DNA of 64,000 nucleotides from Desulfovibrio piger (GTDB lineage: Bacteria; Desulfobacterota; Desulfovibrionia; Desulfovibrionales; Desulfovibrionaceae), in contig NZ_LT630450.1 in NCBI RefSeq assembly GCF_900116045.1, positions 1,183,001 through 1,247,000 on the forward strand, given 5' to 3'. The notes under the pieces were generated by a model. It searched no databases. It was not told the DNA's origin and worked only from the letters and a program-made list of their open reading frames with translations. A program made the position numbers and the translations under genes. Below are positions 51,741-53,929 of this stretch, in pieces (within the stretch, counting starts at the first letter, position 1; the number at the start of each line of letters is the position of its first letter).

Positions 51741-51759
51741 ATTGAAAATAATTTTCAAT
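51741..51759. promoter_or_regulatory. Fur-box-like perfect palindrome
   Basis: ATTGAAAAT-A-ATTTTCAAT is a perfect 19-base inverted repeat immediately upstream of a -35 hexamer. It matches the TGAAAATnATTTTCA form I recall being described for Fur sites in Desulfovibrio. A further half-site GTTTTCAAT lies at 51773-51781. Confidence 0.75.
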
Positions 51760-51763
51760 TCCG

Positions 51764-51792
51764 TTGACATTTGTTTTCAATCATGACATGTT
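51764..51792 (+). promoter_or_regulatory. Promoter of the cysteine-tail protein/porin genes
   Basis: Perfect TTGACA (51764-51769) and, 17 bases on, CATGTT (51787-51792), a poor -10. It overlaps the second Fur half-site, so a bound repressor would block it. Confidence 0.5.
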
Positions 51793-51826
51793 GTCCCCAA
51801 CAAAACACCTCATCACAGGAGCCACC

Positions 51827-52264
51827 ATGCCGAGATTGGAAAACCTTCCCCGGAACCAGCTTTCTTTCCGCCGCAGCGCCAACAACCTGCACATCGCCAC
51901 CGGTGAGGATCTGGATCTGGAACAGGCCCGTGCCATCCTGAACCTCATGCGCTGCCACAGTAGCGACTGCAACAAGTTTTTCATCGACGTGCGTCACGTG
52001 ACCCGCATCCAGCCCGCTGCGGCAGCCGCCCTGCGCGGCGCGCCCCAGCCTTGCATAGCACCGCAGCGCATCCACTATAAAGGCTCCCGCGGCTTCGAGC
52101 TGGCGGCGAGCGGCAACAAGGTCCTCATCGTTCCTGAAAGGGCAAAGCATGTCTGCAAGGGCACCTGCCCCAACTGCCGCTGCAAGGACAAAAAGGCCCG
52201 CGCCAGGGCGCGGAATACGGCCCGGGCGGCGGCCACGGCGTCGGGGGGCGCCGCTGTCGCCTGA
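51827..52264 (+). CDS. Small STAS-like protein with cysteine-rich basic tail, Fur-box controlled
   Basis: A 145-residue protein of no family I can name. Residues 10-105 alternate strands and helices (LHIATGEDLDLEQARAILN, KFFIDVRHVTRIQPAAAAALR, then NKVLIVPERAK), reminiscent of a STAS or sulfate-transporter-antagonist fold. The tail has a cysteine cluster C110-x3-C114-x2-C117-x-C119, then a run of Lys/Arg/Ala. Further cysteines are at 43, 48 and 76. The cluster could hold an Fe-S centre or metal. There is no signal peptide. ATG at 51827 has an AGGAG site; an earlier frame start at 51764 lies within the promoter. It sits 34 bases ahead of the porin gene, so they are one transcript. Confidence 0.8.
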   Translation: MPRLENLPRNQLSFRRSANNLHIATGEDLDLEQARAILNLMRCHSSDCNKFFIDVRHVTRIQPAAAAALRGAPQPCIAPQRIHYKGSRGFELAASGNKVLIVPERAKHVCKGTCPNCRCKDKKARARARNTARAAATASGGAAVA

Positions 52265-52298
52265 TGGATGTGAACCTCAAACAGTAAGGAAGAAGGTC

Positions 52299-53828
52299 AT
52301 GAAAAAAATTCTTACCCTCATGCTGGCCGCCGGCATGCTCCTGGGGGCCGCAAGCGGCGCCCGGGCCATCGATTTCAAGGCTTCCGGCGAATGGCTGGTG
52401 GGCTTCGGTCTGGGTGACGGCAGCCTCATCAAGGATGTGGACAACAAAAAGCGCCACCATGAGGATACGTTCAATGCCGGTCAGCGCGTCCGCCTGCAGC
52501 TGGATGCCGTGGCCTCCGAGACCCTGTCCGGCACGGTGTTCTTCGAGATCGGCGACCAGATGTGGGGCCAGTCCGAAAGCGGCGGCGCCCTGGGGGCCGA
52601 CTCCACCAGCGTGGTGAAGCTCAAGAACGCCTACATCGACTGGATGGTCCCCAACACCGACCTCAAGCTCCGCATGGGCCTGCAGGCCGTGGCCCTGCCC
52701 AACGTGGCCGGCGGCTCGGCCATCATGGACGGTGACGCCGCCGCCGTGGTCGCCAGCTACCAGTTCAACGAGAACGTGGGCCTCACCGCCCTCTGGATGC
52801 GCCCGCTCAACGATAACTACACCGGCACCAATGCCGATGGCGAAGCCTACGGCAACGGCTACAAGAATTATCTGGACAACATGGATCTCTTCGCCCTCAT
52901 GCTGCCCCTGAAGTTCGACGGCGTGGAGCTGACCCCCTGGGCCATGTACGGCCTGCAGGGCAAGAACACCCGCTTCAACGAAGGCGGCGTGGAGACCGCC
53001 GACGGCGCCCTGAACGTGACCCTGCCCGGCTACTACCCCGGCATGAACTTCGGCCCCGGCGGCCTCGGCCACACCGGCAAGTCCTACGGTTCCATGTTCT
53101 GGGCCGGCCTGCCCGTGGCCATCACGGCCTTCGATCCCCTGAACATCGAATTCGACATCAACTACGGCTATGTGGAAGCCATGGGCCGCTACGACGTGCT
53201 CAAGCGCGGTGTGGAATCGGTACTGGGCAACAGCAAGCGTGAAGGCTGGCTGGTCAAGGCCCTGGTGGAATACAAGATGGACTGGGGCACCCCCGGCATC
53301 TTCGGCTGGTATGCCTCCGGTGACGACGGCAACGTCAAGAACGGGTCCGAACGCCTGCCCTCCATCGCCGGATCGGGCAACTTCACGTCCTTCATGGGTG
53401 ACGGCAACCTGGCCTGGGGCACCGGCTACAACTTCTACGACAACAACCTGACCTACGCCGGTACCTGGGGCATCGGCCTGCAGATCGCGGACGTGAGCTT
53501 TGTGGAAGACCTCAAGCACACCTTCCGCGTGGCCTACTGGGGCGGCACCAACAGCCCCTCCATGGTCAAGTACATGGGTTCCGCCGTGGCCTGGGACGAC
53601 ACCACGGCCGTCCAGGACGGCCCGTACCTGACCACCAACGACGGCCTGCTGGAATTCAACCTGGTCAACTCCTGGCAGATCTACGAGAACCTGGAGGCCA
53701 ACCTCGAGCTCGGCTACATCATCAACATGATGGACAGGGACACCTGGGACAAGAGCTACGTCAGCGACCGTAACTGGTCCAAGCAGGACGCCTGGAAAGC
53801 CCAGCTGATCTTCGCCTACTCCTTCTAG
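52299..53828 (+). CDS. Outer membrane porin (Desulfovibrio homotrimeric type)
   Basis: A 509-residue beta-barrel protein. Signal peptide residues 1-24 (MKKILTLMLAAGMLLGAASGARA) are followed by IDFKASGEWLVGFGLGDGS. Alternating aromatic-rich strands (NAYIDWMVPNTDLKLRMGLQAV, FTSFMGDGNLAWGTGYNFYDNN, TYAGTWGIGLQIADVSFVEDL) follow, and it ends in the typical outer-membrane C-terminus FAYSF with a terminal phenylalanine. It should form a diffusion channel for small solutes. It is second in the transcript from the Fur-box promoter, which suggests that its level depends on iron. RBS AAGGAAGAAGG precedes the ATG, and a strong terminator follows. Confidence 0.9.
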   Translation: MKKILTLMLAAGMLLGAASGARAIDFKASGEWLVGFGLGDGSLIKDVDNKKRHHEDTFNAGQRVRLQLDAVASETLSGTVFFEIGDQMWGQSESGGALGADSTSVVKLKNAYIDWMVPNTDLKLRMGLQAVALPNVAGGSAIMDGDAAAVVASYQFNENVGLTALWMRPLNDNYTGTNADGEAYGNGYKNYLDNMDLFALMLPLKFDGVELTPWAMYGLQGKNTRFNEGGVETADGALNVTLPGYYPGMNFGPGGLGHTGKSYGSMFWAGLPVAITAFDPLNIEFDINYGYVEAMGRYDVLKRGVESVLGNSKREGWLVKALVEYKMDWGTPGIFGWYASGDDGNVKNGSERLPSIAGSGNFTSFMGDGNLAWGTGYNFYDNNLTYAGTWGIGLQIADVSFVEDLKHTFRVAYWGGTNSPSMVKYMGSAVAWDDTTAVQDGPYLTTNDGLLEFNLVNSWQIYENLEANLELGYIINMMDRDTWDKSYVSDRNWSKQDAWKAQLIFAYSF

Positions 53829-53887: not shown

Positions 53888-53929
53888 GCCGCCGCTGTTT
53901 TTTGCAGGAACAGCGGCGGCCCCTTTTTT
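53888..53929 (+). terminator. Terminator of the porin gene
   Basis: 12-bp perfect stem GCCGCCGCTGTT / AACAGCGGCGGC, nine-base loop, CCC then six T. Confidence 0.92.

Follow-up and report, generated by a model that had tools for sequence, protein, structure and literature searches.

The locus raises the question of why a gene for an outer-membrane porin and a gene for a small cysteine-tailed protein stand together behind a palindrome of the Fur type, and whether the small protein serves the porin. It lies in a stretch of 64,000 nucleotides from Desulfovibrio piger (contig NZ_LT630450.1, positions 1,183,001 to 1,247,000), which is called the window here and to which all plain coordinates refer. 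Sulfate reducers live amid sulfide, which removes iron, and to our knowledge the entry of iron across their outer membrane is little understood. From comparison of the promoter, the two genes and their relatives, the window probably holds a Fur-controlled two-gene operon for iron shortage. The recurrence of the predicted Fur switch in relatives, before porin genes and before iron-uptake genes, suggests that the pair helps the cell to cope with such shortage.

The earlier note on this DNA had described a perfect 19-base palindrome upstream of a TTGACA hexamer and two genes with 34 bp between them and a strong terminator behind them, and both descriptions are accurate. Box 1, ATTGAAAATAATTTTCAAT, occupies positions 51741-51759 as a perfect 19-bp palindrome (9+1+9, with no strand assigned), and its 17-bp core is at 51742-51758. 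The -35 hexamer TTGACA (51764-51769), a TGn extension (51784-51786) and the -10 hexamer CATGTT (51787-51792) follow on the forward strand, on which the genes and further signals of this operon also lie. The -10 hexamer, separated from the -35 by a 17-bp spacer, agrees with TATAAT in 3 of 6 positions and is absent from the output of the consensus promoter scan, and the TGn extension may compensate for this weakness. The second half-site that had been noticed inside the promoter, TTTTCAA at 51774-51780, is present, and it is actually the right arm of a weaker site, box 2 (TTGACATTTGTTTTCAA, 51764-51780, no strand assigned), which has 3 mismatches, lies 22 bp from box 1 and has the -35 hexamer as its left arm. 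A ribosome-binding site AGGAG (51817-51821) precedes the small gene (145 aa, 51827-52264), whose open reading frame opens earlier, at TTG 51764, and a second one, AAGGAAG (52286-52292), precedes the porin gene (509 aa, 52299-53828). Folding of the gap between the two genes found no stable hairpin there, and an intrinsic terminator at 53888-53920 ends the unit with a 15-pair stem and a T6 tail (-26.5 kcal/mol, z -3.8).

The dFUR consensus WTGAAAATNATTTTCAW is a 17-bp motif derived from the feoAB and fur promoters of delta-proteobacteria (Rodionov 2004, PMC545781). Box 1 has 0 mismatches to it, so the earlier reading of the palindrome as a Desulfovibrio-type Fur form fits the published box. The core of box 1 is the sole 0-mismatch match to TTGAAAATNATTTTCAA in the whole 2.81-Mb single-contig genome, and a search of the window for TTGAAAATCATTTTCAA with up to 3 mismatches gives one place (reported on both strands), against 0 in 100 shuffles. 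With up to 3 mismatches, TTGAAAATNATTTTCAA is found at 13 places in the genome versus 8 for the reversed pattern, so the weakest of the 13 sites are in part due to chance. A 91-aa DUF2325 gene immediately ahead of feoB (G000:C1:495501-496600; L036, L037) has a box with 2 mismatches on either side, an arrangement that connects the motif with iron in the window's own genome. Two Fur-family proteins are encoded in this genome: a Fur-type regulator, encoded at G000:C1:1419341 in a frame of 206 aa, with a PF01475 match of 115.4 bits, which scores best against the Fur models and under their equivalog cut-offs, and another protein whose best scores are against PerR models, below cut-offs. Further Fur-like boxes lie near a metal-type ABC substrate-binding protein (G000:C1:546003, L038), a MoxR-like ATPase/methyltransferase pair (G000:C1:2032997, L039) and a CopZ-like/P-type ATPase divergent pair (G000:C1:2412638, L046), all named by eye.

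The homologue loci that were read number 77 (76 fetched and the window), of which 76 contain the small gene, in 81 copies or pieces, while L063 contains none. Starting at most 450 bp downstream of the small gene there is a porin gene in 33 of the 81 copies, a flavodoxin gene in 20 and neither in 28, a distance that need not mean the next gene, since the flavodoxin gene is 350-355 bp away in L105, L112 and L113 and a DUF2325-like frame stands between in L112; the 81 copies also include short tail-less paralogues, which are the first copies in L105, L106, L111 and L112. In these last four loci two diverged small-protein copies are found about 2 kb apart, the first of them short and without the Cys tail. 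In L107, L111 and L112 the small gene is followed by frames that resemble DUF2325 when judged by eye.

Upstream boxes were counted over 78 of the 81 copies, with L060, L066 and L113 left out for having less than 150 bp upstream at contig ends. Boxes of 2 mismatches or fewer precede 30 of the 32 copies linked to a porin, 4 of the 19 linked to flavodoxin and 9 of the remaining 27; the reversed pattern at the same threshold gives 0 of 78, and the 300-bp background windows from the same loci give 12 of 2778. Loss of the palindrome in relatives that keep the gene pair, which the earlier note had named as a sign against its reading, is therefore not what these loci contain. Loci L105-L114 come from other families of the order; of these, L114 alone has a box within 3 mismatches, so Fur control may not extend to the small-protein family as a whole.

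The distance from the start of the box to the start of TTGAC is exactly 22 bp in 29 of the 32 porin-linked copies, a spacing that the count did not impose. The exceptions are L065 (offset 0), L114 (no TTGAC) and the second piece of L117; this piece, the downstream part of a gene that is split, was counted as porin-linked, while the upstream half, with a +22 box, was counted as "other". The spacing is constant despite a distance from box to start codon that ranges from 81 to 255 bp in the porin-linked copies. Promoters with this spacing number 34 and share one alignment, in which the box is followed by 5 bp, TTGAC, a 17-bp spacer and a weak -10; they comprise 29 porin-linked, 1 flavodoxin-linked and 4 other copies, so the spacing is not restricted to porin operons. 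Among these 34 promoters, 11 (the window's included) have the -35 overlaid by a second box of up to 4 mismatches. In 20 small-gene copies without the 22-bp spacing, which come from other genera and from non-porin copies of the genus, the offset of TTGAC from the box is -9 to +6, and this is the layout expected for repression. Boxes near feoB in the genus have TTGAC at offset -6 (20 boxes), at 0 (3) or at other positions (6, one of which is +22), as counted in 30 loci taken from a longer list; of these 30, L166-L169 lack a FeoB start motif and L162 and L170 lack a box with at most 3 mismatches.

A search of the genus for the box plus the 22-bp spacing, with at most 3 mismatches, is positive in 53 of 61 genomes, against 2 of 61 with the reversed pattern. 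The first recognised gene behind such composite promoters is feoA in 9, porin in 8, DUF2325-feoB in 1 and something else in 2 of 20 fetched loci, which were hand-picked by porin proximity or box type and in which the pattern imposes the spacing, so that 8 and 9 of 20 are not frequencies. The feoA loci include that of the window's own genome, where an insertion stands between promoter and gene. The presence of the same composite promoter before porin genes that lack the small gene and before feoA places the porin in a predicted Fur/Feo-type regulon, most likely one repressed by iron.

The insertion at the feoA promoter (G000:C1:1367500-1373500; L264, also L221) resembles an insertion sequence: it is about 850 bp long and has inverted ends and a CTAG repeat. 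It starts 16 bp downstream from where the -35 hexamer begins and is missing in the relative L262 (G196).

The porin of the window is an outer-membrane homotrimeric porin of the DESULF_POR1 family (NCBIfam NF033939, E 1e-137, 459.6 bits versus a cut-off of 250, profile positions 1-454). It is one of 7 paralogues in the genome and is 97% identical to its homologue in D. piger ATCC 29098 (L003). The other six paralogues are not found immediately behind any of the 13 genome boxes, and the best match to the box upstream of each has 4-6 mismatches. In a midpoint-rooted porin tree, built from frames chosen by tblastn with FastTree local supports and containing two duplicates (L070, equal to the window porin, and L203, equal to L145), one clade of 41 members with local support 0.95 unites 32 small-gene-linked porins of the genus (the 2 duplicates among them), 8 promoter-only porins and L219, whose composite promoter is degenerate with 3 mismatches. 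The small-gene-linked porins L065, L066 and L114, from other genera or families, fall outside this clade. The other porins of the genus that were compared, 33 in number and consisting of the best-scoring porin loci plus the genome's own paralogues rather than every porin of the genus, include 1 with a box of 2 mismatches or fewer (L217) and 4 more with a box of 3 mismatches (L191, L192, L200 and L210), three of which are barely more than A/T runs. At the 8 promoter-only loci no intact small gene stands between composite promoter and porin, and an 18-residue remnant of the small-protein start is left in L252, with none in the other 7. A single clade that carries the promoter, together with a box in 1 of 33 other porins, indicates by sequence comparison that an iron-type porin subfamily exists, and that the small gene is an optional cistron between its promoter and the porin.

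The porin of L217 (G269) lies outside the main clade and has a box, TTGACATTCATTTTCAA, at -85 with the -35 inside the box; G269 has no small-protein match.

The small protein itself has no match in Pfam or NCBIfam, and a sequence search of the PDB with the small-protein profile gave nothing credible. A profile of 21 relatives detects the family in 78 of 348 Desulfovibrionia genomes, about a fifth, and the protein is 90% identical to its homologue in D. piger ATCC 29098 (L003). The AlphaFold model (pLDDT 85.8) predicts a STAS-like domain at about residues 10-102 followed by a Cys-containing tail, and two models give STAS structures as matches (4xs5 and 6jhk in one, 1tid and 6m36 in the other). 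A STAS profile search with a limit of E 0.1 finds nothing in the window protein, STAS_2 in 5 of 59 relatives (best E 1.4e-4) and STAS in 1 of 59 (0.044). The tail contains the motif H-V-C-K-G-T-C-P-N-C-R-C (residues 108-119, positions 52148-52183), whose Cys and His residues are probable metal ligands. The pattern CxGxCxxCxC is present in 65 of the 81 copies and missing in exact form in 16, broken and short ones counted, while the four Cys positions are kept in 55-57 of 59 aligned proteins and His-rich tails occur in the family. Metal binding through the Cys/His tail is thus likely for this presumably cytosolic protein. The column that we equate, by our own reading of the SpoIIAA sequence, with the SpoIIAA-type phospho-acceptor serine where helix 2 begins holds Ala-64 in the window protein and Ser in 21 of 59 proteins. 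A STAS-like fold, as predicted, would be shared with SpoIIAA/RsbV, RsbS and MlaB, whereas the Cys/His tail, the lack of the SpoIIAA-type phospho-serine, the predicted Fur control and the iron-stress neighbours distinguish the small protein from them. The flavodoxin-linked members L142, L143, L144 and L159 have a longer, metallothionein-like tail with two CC pairs.

Some of the 28 copies with neither porin nor flavodoxin have feoB nearby by eye (L051, L060, L064, L108 and L109). Flavodoxin is an iron-sparing carrier, and the contexts that can be named, namely the Fur box, the feoA-type promoter, flavodoxin and Feo, point to iron shortage, while other copies have neighbours not tied to iron. Because a porin follows 33 and a flavodoxin 20 of the 81 copies, the small gene, judged by its contexts, is an iron-stress gene and not a partner dedicated to the porin. 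The earlier idea of a two-gene iron unit holds in so far as the same Fur box is kept with the pair; it does not hold as an obligate pairing, as the family also occurs beside flavodoxin or near feoB and the porin also occurs without an intact small gene.

In the proposed mechanism, Fe-Fur in iron-replete cells would occupy box 1 (together with box 2 over the -35 in the D. piger group and some others) and would exclude RNA polymerase from the promoter. When iron falls, the operon would be transcribed as far as the terminator. The porin would then most likely raise the permeability of the outer membrane to Fe2+ or small iron complexes, which are the presumed solutes, and the inner-membrane Feo system would take the iron up. 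The small protein would stay in the cytosol, where its STAS-like domain, if the predicted fold is right, would probably act as a protein-docking module and its Cys/His tail would bind metal, whether Fe2+, Zn2+ or an Fe-S cluster; it may be a metal chaperone or an iron-status adaptor. In E. coli the general porin OmpC supplies FeoB with Fe2+ (PMC7315122). Against this mechanism count the position of the box in most porin-linked promoters, just upstream of the -35 (at about -58 to -42 by our reckoning) and not over it, the weak -10, the many homologues without a good box and a tail that is not universal.

The upstream position of the box is also the ground for the opposite sign of control, in which Fe-Fur bound just upstream of the -35 contacts RNA polymerase and activates the operon, so that the porin is made when iron is plentiful. 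The 22-bp spacing in 29 of 32 porin-linked copies differs from the overlapping layout at most feoB boxes, and there is a precedent in the Vibrio cholerae porin OmpT, which is activated by Fur, as upstream Fur boxes can activate (PMC3788343). The activating boxes that this review names lie about 90-200 bp from the start site, however (PMC3788343), and the 22-bp spacing also fronts feoA operons, which are normally iron-repressed. The second box over the -35 in 11 of 34 promoters, that of the window among them, and the 20 small-gene copies whose -35 has an offset of -9 to +6 relative to the box speak against activation too, and we regard it as unlikely. The promoter type that the porin has in common with feoA favours ordinary iron repression.

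It is quite improbable, too, that the small protein works specifically as a regulator or sensor of the porin, or of an envelope response, as the earlier note had supposed. The porin within 450 bp of 33 of 81 copies would agree with such a role, as would the regulators SpoIIAA and RsbS and the protein MlaB among the STAS proteins that the models match, but the flavodoxin after 20 copies, the copies near feoB and the 8 fetched loci that have porin and promoter with no intact small gene between them do not; in addition, the SpoIIAA-type phospho-serine position is not kept, being Ala in the window protein, and no anti-sigma kinase was recognised by eye in the neighbourhood lists. The non-obligate pairing makes a dedicated porin-coupling or envelope-sensor role unlikely, while the other part of the supposition, a soluble metal sensor or chaperone, is in keeping with the likely metal binding of the Cys/His tail. 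The box could also belong to another Fur-family protein, of the PerR-like kind, or answer to another metal, given that one of the two Fur-family proteins scores best against PerR models, although below cut-offs. This is very unlikely in view of a motif that equals the Fur box of feoAB and fur promoters (PMC545781) and that fronts feoB in the window's genome.

The small proteins could form a new class of Fur-regulated metallochaperones or iron-status adaptors, in which the STAS module docks on a client, be it FeoB, flavodoxin-dependent enzymes or some other partner, and iron is handed over or sensed through the CxGxCxxCxC/His tail. Such a protein would be placed beside the iron-stress gene of each lineage, and in Desulfovibrio it would accompany the iron-starvation porin; we offer this proposal tentatively. 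The family is unnamed and linked to iron by context, and the protein is small enough for purification and testing. A porin clade with the feoA promoter type would supply the half of ferrous uptake that takes place at the outer membrane of gut Desulfovibrio, and the constant 22-bp spacing between box and promoter makes a clean test case for Fur acting just upstream of a promoter. A study of a D. vulgaris fur mutant reportedly exists and may contain an earlier report.

The window porin is of the same kind as DVU0799 of D. vulgaris and Omp-DP of D. piger, which we take to be members of NF033939. These two are trimeric beta-barrel pores of the Desulfovibrionaceae, and the portion of the source available here describes no iron link for them (PMC5686591), whereas here one porin clade carries a predicted Fur promoter. 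The 17-bp dFUR box is common to the delta-proteobacterial Fur regulon and to the window operon (PMC545781). That regulon includes Fur-predicted porins in Geobacter/Desulfuromonas, one of them followed by feoAB, which are PF07396- or OprB-like, while the window porin belongs to DESULF_POR1; in the available portion of the same paper neither a Desulfovibrio porin nor a small STAS-like protein is described, nor is a constant distance between box and promoter (PMC545781). The E. coli ompC gene is run by EnvZ/OmpR (PMC7315122), in contrast to the window porin, which itself has a predicted Fur promoter of the feoA kind.

Two minor observations concern the small-protein family. The public record of one member, protein P0026, names it "squalene cyclase", which is probably a misannotation. 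In L117 (G263:C1:3315000-3328000) the small gene is split by about 1.3 kb that overlap a reverse-strand frame of 401 aa, and the promoter piece and the porin remain on the two sides of this stretch.
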